Made by a program: the position numbers and the translations under genes. Below, one piece after another: positions 5,318-62,975 of a stretch of DNA of 64,000 bases. This stretch comes from a virus. The notes below the pieces were generated by a model. It made no database searches, was not told the DNA's origin, and saw only the letters and a list, made by a program, of their open reading frames with translations. The stretch spans positions 1 to 64,000 of IMG/VR virus record IMGVR_UViG_3300042305_001773. One strand, written 5' to 3'. The first letter of the stretch is position 1. Every line of letters begins with the position of its first letter.

Positions 5318-6697
5318 TTACACCAAACCGCGCGTGTGTAATTGAGATTCGAGGTTATTTTTTAACGCCTCAGCGCGGATCTTCTCCATCTCGATCAGCT
5401 GTTTGACGTCAAAGTCGGCTAACTGTCCTGCTTCAAGTCGCTTCCGAAGCAGGGCCTGCATCGCCGCGCCAGAACCCGTGAAGTTCGGAGCGATCTCGGC
5501 GATTTGGTTGTAAGCCGAGGCGATCTCGTGCGGGTCATAACCGGAAATGACAGGATCGTTCAGGATCAGGTCGTTAAGGACGCCGCGCGATTTAATCTGC
5601 TGTAGTTTGTTTTCATGCTCAGCATCAGACATGCGCGTGAACGCTGTTTGTTTCTGACGCAGCGGATCGGTCGCTTTTGCTTCGTTGGCTTCTAGCTCGC
5701 CGGCCATCCCGGCCGGGCTCATAAGCTTACCGAGATGCCCCATCGTGCCGCTGTATGACGTCAGCGGTGGGGTTGAATCTTGTTTTTTTTTATCTTTAAC
5801 CGCAGCTACCTTGAGGGCGAGCGGGGCCGTCTTTGGGTCATGAAGAATCGAACCTGTGATCGGTTCCGGCGCGACTTTAGGTTCTGCAGCGGGCGGATTT
5901 AACGCAGCTAATTTACTGGCGGCGTTGTTATGTAGCTCAACCGCTTTGATCACATTTTCAACCAGTGTTACCACAGGGAGCGCACCAAAGAAGTTTTCGG
6001 CGGTGGCGGCTTGTTTTGTAAAGTGCGGATAAACAGCCGCAATTTTATTTAACGTAGAAACACCGAGGTCGCCGAGGCGCAGACCCACCTCACGGATCGC
6101 ATCCGGGAACGACATGTTGCCGGGTACGCGGAAATACTGCGCTAGCTCTTCCATCGCCGACGCGGCTTTGTGGTGCATCACCGTGGCGAGGCGACGAATC
6201 TCTTCAGCGTCGCGGCGCGCCGCTTGCTTTTCGCTGTAGGCTCGGCGGGCCGCCGAGTGGTCGTCGCGCGGCGGTGGTACGTATTGCGGCGCCGGAAGAA
6301 CGTTCTTTGCCGCGGCGGCCTTACTGAGACTGGCGTTACGCCGATTAATAAACCCCGTCGGCGATACCGCATACTCTGTCGAGATGATGCTGTTGTTTGT
6401 TAACTCAGCCGATGTTTTGACGTGCTTAGGATACAACGCGTCCATGACAACGTTTACATCAGCCAGTTGAAAGTCAGCCGCTTTCTCTAGTGTTGTTTCA
6501 CCCAGCTCGCGCTGCTTGTTGGTCCGACCGGTGTTATACGCGTGCACCATAAGATTAATGTGCCCGGCTGGAATACTGGCGTCACTCGCGCTTTTGATAA
6601 TCGCGTTGTTCGGGGTGGCGCCTTCGTTTACCAACGTGGCCGCACGCTCAATTGCGCTCAGCAATTTTTGCTCAGCTTCTTTACTTAATGCCCGCAT
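5318..6697 (-). CDS. virion-region protein of unknown function, 459 aa
   Basis: Started at the ATG at 6697 behind GGAGAAAACCA; it overlaps the end of the 315-aa gene by 17 bases, indicating translational coupling. The chain is Ala-rich and largely helical, with a Pro-rich linker near residues 140-150 (PAPQYVPPPRDD) and Lys-Ala motifs (EKAADF, EKQAA, TKQAATAENFF) that recur in neighbouring head-region proteins. No catalytic motif or membrane segment seen. Possible head or connector component by position. Confidence 0.6.
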   Translation of the reverse strand: MRALSKEAEQKLLSAIERAATLVNEGATPNNAIIKSASDASIPAGHINLMVHAYNTGRTNKQRELGETTLEKAADFQLADVNVVMDALYPKHVKTSAELTNNSIISTEYAVSPTGFINRRNASLSKAAAAKNVLPAPQYVPPPRDDHSAARRAYSEKQAARRDAEEIRRLATVMHHKAASAMEELAQYFRVPGNMSFPDAIREVGLRLGDLGVSTLNKIAAVYPHFTKQAATAENFFGALPVVTLVENVIKAVELHNNAASKLAALNPPAAEPKVAPEPITGSILHDPKTAPLALKVAAVKDKKKQDSTPPLTSYSGTMGHLGKLMSPAGMAGELEANEAKATDPLRQKQTAFTRMSDAEHENKLQQIKSRGVLNDLILNDPVISGYDPHEIASAYNQIAEIAPNFTGSGAAMQALLRKRLEAGQLADFDVKQLIEMEKIRAEALKNNLESQLHTRGLV

Positions 6698-52219: not shown

Positions 52220-53362
52220 TCAACCTAGAGACCGGGTCTTTAGCACCAGCTTTTCCTGCGCGGGCCATAACAGCATCTGCTGCATGGTGTCCGTGCTGGT
52301 GACATCCTTGAGCAGCTTGAGGGCTGCCTGCGGATTCGCCTGTATTACCTCGGGAGCTGGCTTCTCTTCTTTGCACGCCCGAGATAAGTCTTCATACCGC
52401 GTATACGTATCCCACACCCAATCCTCGCCGTTCTCGGGGTTGTGTTTTTTCAGCTCCCCGGTCACGTAATGATTGGTTTGCACAAGGCCGTGTTTCCTTG
52501 TGCGAATGTAGGTATGTTCCCCGGTATGTGTTACGACCGCGTGTTCTTTACTCTCGGTACCGACCACGTGCGCGAAGAATGGCACCATGGTTTGCTGCGT
52601 ACGGAGATGAAAGACAAGCTTCTCGTAACTTGGCATCTTGTCGCAGACTGCTCGGACCCGGTGTAACGCAGGCCACGCTTGGAGCAGGTCTTTAACAGAT
52701 GCCGCGGTGTTTGTCACGTAGGCAAACGCCGAAGTTAACGAACGCCACCAGCTCGTGTCTGTGTCGTCTTCGTCTTCTTCTTCGACGAGCGACTTCACAA
52801 TCGGAGCTTGGTTGACCACCAGCCCCCACTGGTCTGACATCGCGCTGACGACGCCCACCATGCCCGCTACGCCCACCGAAGTGTAGCTTTTGCGGCCACG
52901 ATGAAAGCGAATCAGCTTGGTGTGCTTCCCAGTGGAGGGAGGCGTCACCCAGTCCATGTTGCGCACAATGACTGGGCTAGAATTCACATCGAAGCTGGCG
53001 GAACTGCAGCCACAACCATACATCTCTGCGAGAGACGTAAAGTCGTAGATTAAGTTTCCCAGCAGGAGCTTGCCGACAGGAACTTCGGCGTGCCGCGCAA
53101 TGCACTGAAGTTCCTGCGGATACTCAAGGTCTGTACCCGTAAGGATCCAGCCCCCGAGTCGTCCGCCGCCGCTTGTCACGCTCTTTACGACACTTTTCAT
53201 GGTGTCAGAAAGGTGTGGCAGGATTTCCTCGTCGACATGGGTTTCCACGTCTTCAAGGATGGCCTGAATCGCGTCGCCGTTCTGACGCGCGAATCCAGCC
53301 CAGCGTTCGTCTGGAGGAGCATCCAGATCGATGTCGTGAATCTTCCCGGTGTAAAGTTTCAT
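52220..53362 (-). CDS. acid ceramidase/NAAA-like N-terminal-nucleophile amidohydrolase
   Basis: 380 aa; the ATG at 53362 overlaps the preceding stop as ATGA. Residues 7-21 (KIHDIDLDAPPDERW) match the N-terminal signature of acid ceramidase and NAAA (xIDLDLPPexRW). The nucleophile region MYGCGCSSASFDVNSSP then VIVRNMDW matches CTSIVAxDxxGxxxxxRNLDW with Cys119 as the probable catalytic residue after autocleavage and Arg134/Asp137 conserved. These enzymes hydrolyse N-acyl amides (ceramide, N-acylethanolamines; bacterial relatives act on bile salts, penicillin V and acyl-homoserine lactones). No signal peptide. Substrate unknown. Confidence 0.75.
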   Translation of the reverse strand: MKLYTGKIHDIDLDAPPDERWAGFARQNGDAIQAILEDVETHVDEEILPHLSDTMKSVVKSVTSGGGRLGGWILTGTDLEYPQELQCIARHAEVPVGKLLLGNLIYDFTSLAEMYGCGCSSASFDVNSSPVIVRNMDWVTPPSTGKHTKLIRFHRGRKSYTSVGVAGMVGVVSAMSDQWGLVVNQAPIVKSLVEEEDEDDTDTSWWRSLTSAFAYVTNTAASVKDLLQAWPALHRVRAVCDKMPSYEKLVFHLRTQQTMVPFFAHVVGTESKEHAVVTHTGEHTYIRTRKHGLVQTNHYVTGELKKHNPENGEDWVWDTYTRYEDLSRACKEEKPAPEVIQANPQAALKLLKDVTSTDTMQQMLLWPAQEKLVLKTRSLG

Positions 53363-53757
53363 GACTCGGCCTGCTCTTTCTTGGGCTTGGGCGACAGACC
53401 GAAGTCGTCGTCTTGGCCCGGAAAGGGGACAGGGATGTCGAGCTTGGCACAGCACTGCGCGACCAGATTTTCCAGCCGCTCGATGTACGCCAAGTGCAAC
53501 GCAGCCCGAGCGTCCACGATTTTTTGGAAGCGTTCTTCCAGCAGCCGTCGTGCGACCATCAGCTCTTCCGCTGACACGAGACTCAGCCGCAACCGATTAG
53601 TCGCTTCTTCGGCTTGCTCGATCCGCTCGAAGGCTTTGTTCAGCGTGACGGTTAGAAAACCGACCACTCTGCCCAACTCTTCGACCCTGTCCTCTGCCGG
53701 CTTCGACGGGTCTTCCGGCAACCACTTGTTGATGTCCGTCTCAAATGTCTGGCTCAT
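53359..53757 (-). CDS. coiled-coil partner protein upstream of the ceramidase-like gene
   Basis: 132 aa behind AAGGAGAATGACCG; overlaps the next gene by four bases (ATGA), so the two are translationally coupled. Mostly one long heptad-like helix (VEELGRVVGFLTVTLNKAFE through LENLVAQCCAKL) with an acidic/Lys tail. First gene after promoter copy C. Could chaperone or localise the hydrolase. Confidence 0.6.
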   Translation of the reverse strand: MSQTFETDINKWLPEDPSKPAEDRVEELGRVVGFLTVTLNKAFERIEQAEEATNRLRLSLVSAEELMVARRLLEERFQKIVDARAALHLAYIERLENLVAQCCAKLDIPVPFPGQDDDFGLSPKPKKEQAES

Positions 53758-54992: not shown

Positions 54993-55161
54993 CTCGTCCT
55001 CCTTGAGGAGATAAAACGCCACCGTTCTCGTTGGTGGCCTACGCTTGCAGGTCGTCTGCAAGACCGCCCTGTTAGACCCGAACAGGAGACAGGTAGGGAT
55101 TGCTTAGCGAGTACGTAAAGCACGTGGCTATACCACGGCCGCGGCACCGCTATAGGTCCCT

Positions 55162-55194
55162 ACTAGATATGCCCGCTTTTTTGGGTTTATTTAG
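55162..55194 (-). promoter_or_regulatory. bipartite phage promoter motif (copy E)
   Basis: CTAAATAAAC (55194-55185), 13 nt, CATATCTAGT (55171-55162) on minus. Lies 14 bases downstream of terminator 55208-55244. Confidence 0.75.
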
Positions 55195-55207
55195 CTGGGC
55201 CGGGATA

Positions 55208-55244
55208 GCTAAAAAAAAGCCGGCAGGGGAGCGCACCCCTGCCG
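55208..55244 (-). terminator. intrinsic terminator of the structured RNA
   Basis: Perfect 9-bp stem CGGCAGGGG/CCCCTGCCG (55221-55229, 55236-55244), 6-nt loop, then on minus GC and eight T, AGCTATC. It is the first terminator after the 55312-55652 RNA, with no gene between. Confidence 0.9.
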
Positions 55245-55311
55245 ACTCTTGGCGAATTAACGAGTCGCCACCCGTGCCGAAGCGACCAACCGGTCGCCAA
55301 AAGAATCGTTA

Positions 55312-55652
55312 GCACATGTCATGCCTGTAAGGACAGGTATCACTACCCGCCTACGGTCTGCAGCCGTTTGTTAGGTCACAGACAAACAGGTGGTGTACGG
55401 CCACTTGTTTTTGTTATTTAAAACTAGTCTGGCAGGTCTTTCACCTGCACCGCTCGCTCCCCTAGCCATAATGTTAGCGTAGTCGAACGGAGTCGCTTGT
55501 AGTAGCCACGAGGCCCGGGCGGGGCTGCCCGCTACTACGTAATCTACCCTAACGGTTCCTGCAAAACATTTCACCGCGCCTGCTCGTTACAAACGCGTAC
55601 GTGCACCTAGAGATAGGTTCATACACACGCTTCTTACAGGCATGACATGTGC
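55312..55652 (-). ncRNA. large structured non-coding RNA candidate (341 nt)
   Basis: Ends are joined by a perfect 20-bp helix, 55312-55331 with 55633-55652, extendable by three more pairs past one mismatch that is G-U on minus. Inside are GTAGTAGC/GCTACTAC (8 bp), GCAGGT/ACCTGC (6 bp), a 9-bp stem at 55385-55393/55401-55409, and short hairpins including a GUGA tetraloop on minus. No credible gene is present. A terminator follows 68 bases downstream on minus. Not recognisable as tmRNA, RNase P, 6S or a group I intron; similar in spirit to large phage RNAs such as GOLLD or ROOL, but no identity is claimed. Confidence 0.6.
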
Positions 55653-55681
55653 CAACGTCTGGATTCTAGCATCCATGTTGG

Positions 55682-55966
55682 CTACGTCAACGTGTCAATA
55701 TAGTGCTGTAGGGCACAGGCATGACGCGTGACGATATCCTCGGCTTCGCTTCCGGGGCACTTCTGATCCAGCTCTTGGACCAGACTGACAACTGAACGCC
55801 GAATGTTTAACAACGCCCGGCGCAGTTGTTTCACTTCCACCTCGGTGTCAGTTTTGTATCTATTCCCTTCCTTCGTCGTCACCATCGGTTCTAGCGCCTC
55901 CTTCTTGTGTACAACCTCGTCCCACCACTGATTGTTCCACTTCACTGCTGCCGGTCTCGCTGGCAT
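55682..55966 (-). CDS. small helical protein, 94 aa (start uncertain)
   Basis: ATG at 55966 has AAGGAAACCA upstream, but this overlaps the next gene by 107 bases; an alternative ATG at 55885 (67 aa) reduces overlap to 26 bases. Helical, with KQLRRALLNIRRSVVSLVQE. Last gene before the structured RNA. Confidence 0.5.
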   Translation of the reverse strand: MPARPAAVKWNNQWWDEVVHKKEALEPMVTTKEGNRYKTDTEVEVKQLRRALLNIRRSVVSLVQELDQKCPGSEAEDIVTRHACALQHYIDTLT

Positions 55967-57393: not shown

Positions 57394-57612
57394 CTACTCC
57401 TTTGTGAAAAGAAACGTATCGTTCACCAATTCAATCTTTGACGGCATGTTTGTATTGTTAACAAGCCGTACACTTGGGTCGTCCACCATCTGACCGTTGA
57501 TCTTGCACCGACCCGTCACAATCTCGCGCCGAATCAACGACTCCGGCATGTCTGTCTTTGTCGCCAGCCAGTCCACGAGCGACACCCCGACAATCGGCTC
57601 TGCTTCGCTCAT
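57394..57612 (-). CDS. S4-like RNA-binding domain protein, 72 aa
   Basis: ATG at 57612 overlaps the preceding stop (TAATG). SLVDWLATKTDMPESLIRRE followed by IVTGRCKINGQMVDDPSVRL matches the S4 fold (LDxxLA....SRSxAxxLIxxGxVxVNGxxVxxPSxxV). S4 domains bind structured RNA such as rRNA or tRNA; here the whole protein is one S4 domain. Confidence 0.65.
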   Translation of the reverse strand: MSEAEPIVGVSLVDWLATKTDMPESLIRREIVTGRCKINGQMVDDPSVRLVNNTNMPSKIELVNDTFLFTKE

Positions 57613-58226
57613 TAGTCCCACAACCCCTGATAGTACTTACCGAACAGAGTCGTCCCGCGGCGGATACGCTCCTCGTGGGCTTTCAAACCTTCGATATCGA
57701 CCTTCAAATTGCTGTAGTGCTTTTCAAAGTTATCAATATCGGCCAGCTCCTCGCGGCCAGTGTAAAACGGGTCGTCGTGGTCTGGGTCATTGAGCTGTTC
57801 AAACGCCCAGATCATTTCGCCTAAAATCCAGTTCCACCGCGCCTCGTGGTTAGCGTCGGTGGGGTCGTAGCGCTGCTCTTTCGCTGTACGAGGCGTGGCA
57901 GCTGTTGACCGAAGCTCTTCAGGCACATCGTCGTCGTCCGTAAACGGGCTGCCATGCTGGGTATCCCGCAGCTGCTTGAGCAGCGGCAGGATAATTGGCG
58001 CCAGCGTGGCATCGACACTCCACGTGTCGTAGTAGTGGAGTTTTATGACTTTCTTCTGCTCGCGGAACCGACCATGAAACCACTCGCAGAACGGGCCGAA
58101 CCACGTTTTGTTCAAGCGTTCGCCGAGCTTGTCGCAGCGGTCTTCCGAAAAGCCGACGTACTGCAGCAAGTTTGCCAGCTGATATGGACCCCACCATTTC
58201 TTGGGCGGGCCGATGTAAACTTTCAC
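57612..58226 (-). CDS. conserved large-phage protein of unknown function, 204 aa
   Basis: Starts MKVYIGPPKKWWGPYQLANL and contains VIKLHYYDTWSVDATLAPII, HGSPFTDDDDVPEELRSTAA and ARWNWILGEMIWAFEQLNDP. From memory this pattern recurs in many large phages without a known role. Trp- and Asp-rich with no membrane segment. Overlaps the zinc-protein gene by four bases. Confidence 0.65.
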   Translation of the reverse strand: MKVYIGPPKKWWGPYQLANLLQYVGFSEDRCDKLGERLNKTWFGPFCEWFHGRFREQKKVIKLHYYDTWSVDATLAPIILPLLKQLRDTQHGSPFTDDDDVPEELRSTAATPRTAKEQRYDPTDANHEARWNWILGEMIWAFEQLNDPDHDDPFYTGREELADIDNFEKHYSNLKVDIEGLKAHEERIRRGTTLFGKYYQGLWD

Positions 58227-59911: not shown

Positions 59912-60031
59912 AAATCGAAAAAGCCTCGCCGCAGGGCTGTGGTCATATCGAGTATGTTGTACCCTCCCACAATTTAAGGTAGTTAACTTTCCCCTGCATT
60001 TCGCAGCGCTGTACACACGCTGCCGAGACAA

Positions 60032-60105
60032 TAACCCGGGTGGGAGTCGAACCCACAACAAGTAGATCCTAAGTCTACCGCCTCTGCCAGTTGGGCTACC
60101 GAGTT
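60032..60105 (-). tRNA. tRNA-Leu (UAG), short variable arm
   Basis: Acceptor AACTCGG/CCGGGTT with A73, anticodon stem GTAGA/TCTAC and loop CTTAGGA (anticodon TAG), T arm GTGGG-TTCGACT-CCCAC. The variable loop is only about five bases, whereas cellular tRNA-Leu has a long arm. Confidence 0.88.
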
Positions 60106-60109
60106 ATAT

Positions 60110-60182
60110 TGACCCCACGGGGATTCGAACCCCGGTAAACGGAACGAAAATCCGTTGTCCTAGGCCACTAGACGATGGGGCC
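60110..60182 (-). tRNA. tRNA-Glu (UUC)
   Basis: Acceptor GGCCCCA/TGGGGTC, anticodon loop TTTTCGT in stem ACGGA/TCCGT (anticodon TTC), T arm CGGGG-TTCGAAT-CCCCG. Four bases from the preceding tRNA-Leu. Confidence 0.92.
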
Positions 60183-60190
60183 GCGTGCGC

Positions 60191-60331
60191 CTAAGTATTG
60201 TCCGCGCACTCTTTCTTTTCAAGCAGCCGCTCTGTTTTCCAGAACAGACGCTTTCCGAACTTCTTCATGTGCTTGTTCCAGCCCATAATTTTTGGGCGCA
60301 CATGCAGCAGTCCGCGCTTTTTTGTGGTCAT
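60191..60331 (-). CDS. 46-aa basic protein gene within the tRNA cluster
   Basis: ATG at 60331 behind AAAGGAACAGC. Product TTKKRGLLHVRPKIMGWNKH then MKKFGKRLFWKTERLLEKKE is very basic with aromatic residues, like small nucleic-acid or ribosome-binding proteins. Fits exactly between tRNA genes. Confidence 0.55.
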   Translation of the reverse strand: MTTKKRGLLHVRPKIMGWNKHMKKFGKRLFWKTERLLEKKECADNT

Positions 60332-60357
60332 GCTGTTCCTTTGATAACAAAACCCAG

Positions 60358-60428
60358 TAGCCCGCCGAGGAGTCGAACCCCGCGTTGCGAGTTAATAAGA
60401 CTCGCTTGCCAACCGGTTTCCGCGGGCC
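60358..60428 (-). tRNA. tRNA-like gene, anticodon uncertain (UAU if 7-nt loop)
   Basis: Acceptor GGCCCGC/GCGGGCT with A73 and T arm CGGGG-TTCGACT-CCTCG are sound. The anticodon stem CGAGT/ACTCG gives loop CTTATTA (TAT, Ile) but base 37 would be U instead of the purine expected, and positions 8-9 are GG rather than UA. The D arm is irregular. Possibly a decayed or specialised tRNA. Confidence 0.6.
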
Positions 60429-60433
60429 GCGTG

Positions 60434-60474
60434 GGTGGGGCGCCAGAGGCTTGGGCTACCTCCAGCGCCCCACC
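60434..60474. repeat. 10-bp GC-rich hairpin abutting the tRNA-like gene
   Basis: GGTGGGGCGC/GCGCCCCACC (60434-60443, 60465-60474) with an inner GAGG/CCTC. It lies five bases from the 5-prime end of the tRNA-like gene and just after the 120-aa gene; no T-run follows, so a processing signal is as likely as a terminator. Confidence 0.6.
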
Positions 60475-60491
60475 GTCAGCGAGTCTAACGC

Positions 60492-60854
60492 TTACCGGTA
60501 GCGCTTGCACGCATACCAGCGGCCATCCCTGCCACGCGCGACCCCTTGGTCAACGACCGCTCTGCCGCTATTGCTGTAGCAGCAGTTTCCCAGCGCCTGC
60601 TCGGGTGTTGAGCCCATGCCGACGCCCTCCATTCCAGAGTTTCCCCCGTAATGTCCCATGCGGCCATTGCTGGCCTGCAGCTCGGCTACGCCCTGCGCCG
60701 AACCGGTGTGCCCGGCATAAGACGTAGCGTACGAGTAGGACTTTGCAGGAGCCTGAACCTGAGACGGTGTGTAGGAACGACGGTGTCGCGGGGCAGCATG
60801 CGCAACGCTGACCAGCGAAAGAACGACGGCTACACACATGAGAAAACGGAACAT
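60492..60854 (-). CDS. secreted small protein with C-terminal GRWYACKRYR domain
   Basis: 120 aa; ATG at 60854 behind GGAGGATCGTT. Signal peptide FRFLMCVAVVLSLVSVAHA, a Ser/Tyr-rich linker, then MEGVGMGSTPEQALGNCCYS and VARGRDGRWYACKRYR. That pattern (GMGxTPEQALxNCC...GRxGWYAC) is one I recall in small exported proteins of phages and bacteria; function unknown. Confidence 0.65.
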   Translation of the reverse strand: MFRFLMCVAVVLSLVSVAHAAPRHRRSYTPSQVQAPAKSYSYATSYAGHTGSAQGVAELQASNGRMGHYGGNSGMEGVGMGSTPEQALGNCCYSNSGRAVVDQGVARGRDGRWYACKRYR

Positions 60855-60921
60855 AACGATCCTCCGTGACCCCGCTGCGGGTGTGCGCAGCGTGAAAAGA
60901 AACAGGCCCCACACCGGGCAG

Positions 60922-60995
60922 TAGGCGCAAAGGGACTCGAACCCCTAACCCCCTGCGTGTAAAGCAGGTGCTCTGACCAATTGAGCTATGCGCCT
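60922..60995 (-). tRNA. tRNA-Val (UAC)
   Basis: Acceptor AGGCGCA/TGCGCCT with A73, D arm GCTC-AATTGGTCA-GAGC, anticodon stem CCTGC/GCAGG with loop TTTACAC (anticodon TAC), T arm AGGGG-TTCGAGT-CCCTT. Confidence 0.93.
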
Positions 60996-61001
60996 ACAGG
61001 T

Positions 61002-61382
61002 CTAGCTGTACTTGCCACGCCATTTGTCAAAGCGCAGCATGTACCAGTTCCACCGGTCACGAACGCGCCGACCCTGTCGTCGGAGGCCACGGCAAAACCG
61101 CAGCCACGGCGTGTTCAAGCCGTTTTCGGTGAGGTACTTTCGGTACGACCATTGAACAGCCTCGTCTGATCCGGCATCAGTTATCGCCAGATCACACGCG
61201 TCGCAACGCAGGCACGGCACAGCATACACCGGTACCTGATGTATCTTACCGTCAATGCGCATGTCGTACACGTCTTTGAACGTATACGCTCTCATGGTCT
61301 CGCCGCACTGGTAACAGCAAACCGGCCTGTATACACAGGTGGACTGCTTTAACAAGTTGGGCGACAGAATGTTTTGATCCAC
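61002..61382 (-). CDS. YgiT/MqsA-like zinc-finger protein, 126 aa
   Basis: Start at the GTG at 61382, six bases after AAAGGAG. CCYQCGETM and, 40 residues later, VPCLRCDACDLAI make two CxxC pairs as in YgiT-type antitoxin N-termini, followed by a basic helical tail (RRQGRRVRDRWNWYMLRFDK). No toxin partner nearby. Function unknown. Confidence 0.55.
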   Translation of the reverse strand: MDQNILSPNLLKQSTCVYRPVCCYQCGETMRAYTFKDVYDMRIDGKIHQVPVYAVPCLRCDACDLAITDAGSDEAVQWSYRKYLTENGLNTPWLRFCRGLRRQGRRVRDRWNWYMLRFDKWRGKYS

Positions 61383-61404
61383 TGACAACTCCTTTCTATC
61401 AGAT

Positions 61405-61477
61405 TAGGATCGGTGGGACTCGAACCCACACTGGGAGGATTTTAAGTCCTCTGCCTCTGCCATTGGGCTACGATCCC
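61405..61477 (-). tRNA. tRNA-Leu (UAA), short variable arm
   Basis: Acceptor GGGATCG/CGATCCT with A73, anticodon stem GAGGA/TCCTC with loop CTTAAAA (an anticodon of TAA), T arm GTGGG-TTCGAGT-CCCAC. Variable loop about five bases, like the other Leu gene here. Confidence 0.9.
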
Positions 61478-61487
61478 CCGCCGCTGT

Positions 61488-61775
61488 TCACACCAGCGTG
61501 GTTTCTTCGGGCGCCGGGTACTGCTCAGGATGAGCGATGTGCCGGAACAACGCACGCCCAGTGTCGCTGTGCGTGCCGAACATATCCCGGCGGTGCATCG
61601 TCTGCTCAACCATCTCGAACGCCTGCCGCAGGTGCAGGTATTGCGAGTAGGTTAACGGCATCCCGTTATCCAGCAGCGGCTCCAGCGCGTCGCGCAGTTT
61701 GCGCAGCTCGACGGGCAGGCGGTCGTTGTAATAGCTCGCCGTTCGTTCAAATTCATCGCGTTCGTGTGTCACCAT
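61488..61775 (-). CDS. hypothetical helical protein, 95 aa
   Basis: ATG at 61775 with GAGGT upstream, overlapping the end of the 77-aa gene by 23 bases. Helical (VTHERDEFERTASYYNDRLP, LRQAFEMVEQTMHRRD). No family recognised. Confidence 0.55.
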   Translation of the reverse strand: MVTHERDEFERTASYYNDRLPVELRKLRDALEPLLDNGMPLTYSQYLHLRQAFEMVEQTMHRRDMFGTHSDTGRALFRHIAHPEQYPAPEETTLV

Positions 61776-61986
61776 TCCAGACGTACCTCTTGTCGCCAAT
61801 CTGGCACCACCACCGCTGCCCGTCGTTCCAGTAGACGGGAGTCACAGACGGCGATGGGGGTTGCAGCGTTGTCGGCGCGGGATGCGCCTTCTGATACTCT
61901 TCATAGCTCTGCCACGCGATTCCCGCAAGCATCAGCAACGCCGTCACCAAACCAATCACATTGCCCTTGATTTCAATACCCTTCAT
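61753..61986 (-). CDS. small membrane-anchored protein, 77 aa
   Basis: ATG at 61986 behind AAGGAGGTTTTGAA. Transmembrane helix NVIGLVTALLMLAGIAW, Pro-rich linker (APTTLQPPSPSVTP), then a small WNDGQRWWCQIGDKRYVWNG beta unit. Likely exposed outside the membrane. Unknown. Confidence 0.6.
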   Translation of the reverse strand: MKGIEIKGNVIGLVTALLMLAGIAWQSYEEYQKAHPAPTTLQPPSPSVTPVYWNDGQRWWCQIGDKRYVWNGDTRTR

Positions 61987-62031
61987 TTCAAAACCTCCTT
62001 GTTTGGAAATGACCTTCAAACAACAAAACAT

Positions 62032-62102
62032 TGGGACCGCTGGGAATCGAACCCAGACCGAGGGATTAAAAGTCCCCTGCTCGACCTTCGAGCTACGGTC
62101 CC
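62032..62102 (-). tRNA. tRNA-Lys (UUU)
   Basis: Acceptor GGGACCG/CGGTCCC with A73, D arm GCTC-GAAGGTC-GAGC, anticodon stem GGGGA/TCCCT with loop CTTTTAA (anticodon TTT), T arm CTGGG-TTCGATT-CCCAG. Confidence 0.92.
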
Positions 62103-62874: not shown

Positions 62875-62938
62875 GGCATCCTCCTCGCATAGCCCGAATG
62901 TGTGTGCTCAATCCCGCAAACACGTATTTGCGGGGCAC

Positions 62939-62971
62939 AAAGAATATGCCTTGATATTGCCAGATATTTAG
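62939..62971 (-). promoter_or_regulatory. bipartite phage promoter motif (copy F, divergent)
   Basis: CTAAATATCT (62971-62962), 13 nt, CATATTCTTT (62948-62939) on minus. Spacing is the same 13 nt though both boxes are less conserved. Just downstream of the glycosyltransferase stop and upstream of the tRNA/small-gene cluster. Confidence 0.55.
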
Positions 62972-62975
62972 GCAA

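Follow-up and report, generated by a model that had tools for sequence, protein, structure and literature searches.

Evidence that a 205-kb phage genome encodes a structured noncoding RNA outside the described families

We analyzed a 64,000-nt stretch of DNA (the window), which makes up the initial 64 kb of a 205-kb IMG/VR record from a virus of bacteria known only from metagenomes, and found that its minus strand almost certainly carries a structured noncoding RNA gene belonging to no described family. The structured domain occupies positions 55307-55657 and is closed by a 25-bp helix. Our best overall explanation, to which we assign a probability of roughly 0.6, is a trans-acting structural RNA gene, expressed as one unit, that would work as a scaffold or decoy and might form a dimer.

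The preliminary description of this locus had reported a 341-nt stretch (55312-55652) with its ends joined by 20 uninterrupted pairs. The two arms (55312-55331 and 55633-55652) are indeed perfectly complementary over 20 bp, and among perfect inverted repeats spanning up to 700 nt they form the longest in the window, ahead of one of 14 bp. The maximum in 40 first-order Markov simulations of the window was 15 bp. On the minus strand, this closing helix (P1) grows to 25 bp with one G-U pair, the 5' arm 55657-55633 pairing with the 3' arm 55331-55307. On the plus strand, an A-C mismatch at the G-U position stops the extension; the preliminary description had likewise placed the G-U extension on the minus strand only. 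Compared with shuffled sequences, the folding energy of the 341 nt has a z-score of -6.2, and the two strands are alike in this respect (-6.2 and -6.3). Both strands thus fold far better than shuffles, and energy alone cannot fix the strand. For the whole predicted transcript (55656-55210), the z-score is -8.35.

Related contigs were located through the RNA polymerase gene (49 contigs, 71-97% identical over the best segment), and homologs of the RNA were searched for in whole related records and then in viral contigs with conserved patterns. Near homologs, here called type A, were found at loci L057, L058, L059, L060, L061, L087 (identical to L088), and L095, with about 79-95% identity to the window. 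A distant homolog of 403 nt (type B; L063 in contig G039) has only about 50% identity, and a covariance model of the eight near homologs (R1) detects it with 114 bits and an E-value of 9e-32. The proven fold is limited to nine distinct sequences (the window and eight others), all from one phage clade. No match to the RNA was found in annotated phages and plasmids. Two pattern scans that covered 84,980 bacterial and archaeal species, each represented by one genome, also gave no match. Several other candidates were rejected. An exact 17-mer of the helix had 4 matches in viral contigs, about the number expected by chance. A match of model R2 in a 185-kb virus contig (G053, locus L160; E 2.8e-5) was judged on reading to be an atypical tRNA-Pro-like gene; it lies at L160 1501-1594 within a tRNA array, has an atypical T loop (UGAAAGC), and is not called by ARAGORN. 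Salmonella phage Arash, a cultured relative (RNA polymerase 33% identity), gave no covariance model match, and its only two long closing helices both lie within annotated coding genes.

The main support for the fold comes from compensatory evolution. In the alignment of the nine distinct sequences (A3), whose consensus structure has 119 pairs, 96.3% of pairing cells hold. Changes on both sides were observed at 36 of the 119 pairs, compared to a mean of 15.5 in shuffled alignments, none of which reached 36 in 500 trials, and 3-9 in slid controls. Double-compensated cells numbered 72, compared to 19.9 in shuffles. P1 is 99.5% paired across the alignment, with double changes at 12 of its 24 pairs; for example, one arm reads AUGUCAUGCCUGUAAG in the window and AAGAAACGCUCGUGAG in L058, and the other arm changes to match. 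The internal stems proposed in the preliminary description are likewise real and covary in the homologs, and the covariance check it had suggested came out in favor of the structure. Moreover, G-U cells (141) far outnumber A-C cells (6), indicating that the RNA is the minus strand. No conserved reading frame crosses the region, in which stops are scattered and close homologs differ by indels of 1-2 nt, in line with its earlier description as gene-free. Conserved core segments occur alongside fast-changing, variable peripheral stems, an arrangement typical of RNAs with tertiary structure.

Several individual elements stand out within the domain (all on the minus strand). Hairpin P13 (55432-55448) has the form GCAGG-UGAAAGA-CCUGC, with a 7-nt loop of T-loop type (UGAAA) that is nearly invariant in types A and B. 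Given as GCAGG-UGAAAGN-CCUGC, it has the T-loop form, and the loop resembles that of the tRNA T arm. The alignment also supports helix P11 with a conserved loop (55450-55490) and hairpin P17 (55332-55351). The latter ends in a GUGA tetraloop in the near homologs, in keeping with the GNRA loops suggested previously, but the distant homolog has GUAG, and the suggestion holds for type A only. Hairpin P16 (55386-55408) is changed on both sides at 7 of its 8 pairs, and its loop CCGUACA, which is partly palindromic (GUAC), is identical in the eight near homologs. When the unpaired columns were searched for pseudoknots, the only candidates were 4-bp pairings between the P11 and P16 loops, and no pseudoknot is claimed.

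Signals for transcription flank the domain on the same strand. A sigma70-like promoter (TTGACG-16-TAGAAT, 10 of 12 matches) with an extended -10 element (TGC before the -10 box) is located at 55663-55690. Only three sites of this quality exist on both strands of the 64 kb, and only this one has TG before the -10 box. The predicted start, 55656, lies 7 nt past the -10 box and is the first base of the conserved helix. Both promoter boxes and their 6-nt distance to the helix are kept in L057, L058, L059, L060, L087, and L095, that is, in 7 of 9 sequences with the window; L061 has a related version 9 nt away, and the promoter of L063 is unclear. Downstream of the domain, a 3' tail (55251-55306) composed of a conserved hairpin, GGCGACCGGUUGGUCGC, followed by UUCGGCACG, is kept in type A. 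Next comes an intrinsic terminator (55207-55250), found in every type A homolog, which consists of a 15-pair stem (55250-55215) and a run of T. The preliminary description had placed a minus-strand terminator 68 bases downstream, and this stem begins about 62 nt past the helix. There is no ORF between the RNA domain and the terminator. The strand is thus fixed by the promoter, the terminator, and the G-U pairs, and the earlier proposal of a minus-strand structured RNA is upheld by these signals together with compensatory evolution. A single minus-strand transcription unit of about 445 nt is predicted; transcription is inferred, as no transcript has been seen.

In the window and the homologs, the -10 box also lies within an inverted repeat whose halves change together between homologs, with versions such as GGAT-GCTAGA-ATCC, CGGGT-GTTACAAT-ACCCG, and GGGA-CGCTAGAA-TCCC. 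This repeat could be an operator, a DNA hairpin promoter, or an RNA hairpin of a read-through transcript.

A probable longer form of the RNA was found in other relatives. In contig G037, gene order anchored on 57612-58226, together with a search for long closing helices, led to a 454-nt intergenic RNA in the equivalent place, whose ends are joined by about 21 bp (17 and 4 bp separated by a mismatch). A sequence-independent closing-helix scan of about 190 kb of each of G006, G019, G040, and G043 revealed another 454-nt RNA in G019, closed by 25 bp, whose sequence recurs in three further contigs. Local alignment of the G037 and G019 RNAs scores 687, against an unrelated-level background of about 130 in the same script. 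Their consensus has 123 pairs, of which 40 carry changes on both sides and 1 is broken. Judged on these comparisons, they are clearly homologs of each other (type C). They share with types A and B the size class, the closing helix, the position (for G037), and a core block, CCAAG ... GCUAG-RGGAG ... CGGUGC. With model R1, G037 can be aligned in register over positions 113-280 of the model, but only at 8.7 bits (the best in a 2-kb control stretch is 5.5), and G019 is not detected. A link between the 350-nt and 454-nt types by sequence alone was not significant: the best local scores were 177 and 153, compared to shuffle means of 130 and 122 and shuffle maxima of 178 and 196. Kinship of type C with types A and B is therefore probable but not proven.

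The RNA is not present throughout the clade. No copy was found by covariance model or helix scan in the near-complete relatives G006, G040, and G043. In G025, the gene order, the tail, and the terminator persist and the RNA body is gone, which we read from the sequence as a natural deletion. The RNA is thus dispensable, given that those searches found it in none of these three relatives and that G025 has lost its body. Only a hairpin derived from the closing helix, about 20 bp long with a single mismatch, is left, at L062 1461-1512 in G025.

Other features of the neighborhood were also recorded. The homologs and G025 keep the gene just upstream (55682-55966), whose small protein product has a WNNQWW motif; in L063, this gene is separated from the RNA by a small S4-domain gene. 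A stand-alone S4-domain protein (57394-57621, minus strand) is conserved near the RNA, and the Pfam S4 domain is above the cut-off in L061 and L063. This protein was rejected as an obligate partner, since it occurs in phages that lack the RNA and was not detected in those carrying the 454-nt type. The phage tmRNA (59464-59807, minus strand; tag GTFNSVPALAA) is the only tmRNA called by ARAGORN and Rfam, and five tRNAs lie at 60031-62102 (minus strand). In addition, a tmRNA-like sequence was recognized by eye in an intergenic gap of the related region of G006 (L152, about 5988-6340). An intergenic element, TAGCTAT..GCTAAATA..GGCATAT plus an A/T-rich stretch, recurs in this phage clade (about 55155-55206 and 62930-62975 on the minus strand, and also in L150, L151, L153, and L154) and is a candidate promoter for the multisubunit RNA polymerase that the phage itself encodes. 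The protein encoded at 52220-53455 (minus strand) matches the Pfam acyl-CoA:6-APA acyltransferase and N-acylethanolamine amidase beta-subunit families.

The RNA was then compared with known families. Using gathering thresholds, cmscan of the window against Rfam returned only tRNAs and the tmRNA. Permissive scans of the region (E up to 10), three homolog loci (E up to 5), and the 454-nt relative gave nothing credible, which agrees with the earlier impression that no known class could be recognized. GOLLD is a large ornate noncoding RNA of phages and prophages that is often found near tRNAs and has no known function, and ROOL is a large, structured RNA carried by phages, often near tRNA islands, that has no known protein partner and forms RNA-only cages (PMC12286853). 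The present RNA is similar to GOLLD in being a large structured phage RNA with tRNAs nearby, but GOLLD is often longer than 800 nt and the present RNA is about 350 nt, without a match to the GOLLD Rfam model. Similarly, the solved form of ROOL has 659 nt, whereas the present RNA has a 25-bp closing helix and no Rfam match. The preliminary description had left open a relative of GOLLD or ROOL or a new class. Since neither model matches, a new class fits better; the RNA resembles these families loosely in kind, is a member of neither, and constitutes a new family.

Likenesses to RNAs of translation and RNA processing also have to be weighed. With tmRNA and RNase P RNA, the present RNA shares a similar size, a closing helix, and a T-loop-type hairpin, and bacterial Y RNA (YrlA) has paired ends and a tRNA-like T-arm hairpin. 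The RNA might accordingly be a divergent functional analog of one of these three, acting on phage tRNAs or ribosomes, and the tmRNA and five tRNAs on the same strand 4-6.5 kb away, the P13 loop, and the S4 RNA-binding protein encoded nearby would all suit such a role. We nevertheless consider it improbable. None of the Rfam models of RNase P RNA, tmRNA, and Y RNA matched at E-values up to 10, ARAGORN found no tag frame in the present RNA, and a catalytic core of the RNase P type is missing. Moreover, the phage already has an ordinary tmRNA (4 kb away), its genome contains no Ro60/TROVE protein, and the T-loop is not kept in the type of about 454 nt. Equally hard to favor is a counter-defense RNA, that is, a folded decoy titrating a host defense nuclease or sensor. 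The host-type promoter suggests early expression, and the fast-changing peripheral stems and the loss in sister phages fit an accessory role, but strong sequence conservation of the core is unexpected for a simple double-stranded decoy, and no defense-related neighbor was recognized. A self-splicing intron, a riboswitch or other cis element, or a long antiterminator leader is very unlikely. The RNA is structured and lies within an operon-like run of minus-strand genes, but it has its own promoter, and its terminator follows without an intervening ORF. Furthermore, the neighboring genes are complete in relatives with none interrupted, no group I or group II core model matched, and a constant 24-25 bp closing helix is not an intron feature. 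Finally, a DNA-level feature (a mobile-element inverted repeat or replication hairpin) or a translated region can scarcely be entertained, since a perfect inverted repeat is by itself symmetric on both DNA strands but the internal covariation and the excess of G-U over A-C show that selection acts on the minus-strand RNA, and neither a conserved frame nor a nearby transposase was recognized.

Our preferred reading is that of a dedicated noncoding RNA gene of a tailed phage, whose minus-strand unit would probably be transcribed by the host RNA polymerase from the sigma70-type promoter; the promoter and terminator are seen as sequence, and their use is inferred. The 350-nt domain has a multi-branched fold clamped by P1, in which, as the covariation indicates, length and pairing are kept and sequence is not. 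Because P1 is a near-constant, almost perfectly paired helix of 24-25 bp with drifting sequence, it may protect the ends or serve as an RNase III processing stem. Most likely, we infer, it is a stable structural RNA that works in trans within infected cells. Whether it is a scaffold or decoy holding a host or phage protein or RNA is tentative, with the chances somewhat below even; the sequence identifies no partner. Dimer kissing through the P16 loop is a weak, untested inference. Each type has a partial palindrome in this loop (GUAC, UGAUCA, UGCAUGCA, and GGCC), which hints at loop-loop dimers; the pattern was spotted only in retrospect and could be due to chance, the palindrome being 4 nt in type A.

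In bacteria and phages, few large structured noncoding RNAs are known. Three whose structures have been solved proved to be unexpected homo-oligomers (PMC12286853). In a bolder and rather doubtful reading, the RNA would be a large phage RNA machine of a new class, split into three or more diverged subtypes (about 350, 400, and 454 nt), which has no dedicated protein, combines an intricate tertiary fold with loop-loop dimerization, and controls host or phage macromolecules in infection. The evidence for the fold is unusually clean for a handful of genomes. The RNA is small enough for chemical probing or cryo-EM, its ends are predicted, and G025 offers a natural deletion relative. Scanning related phages for long closing helices, which does not require sequence similarity, could reveal more such RNAs.
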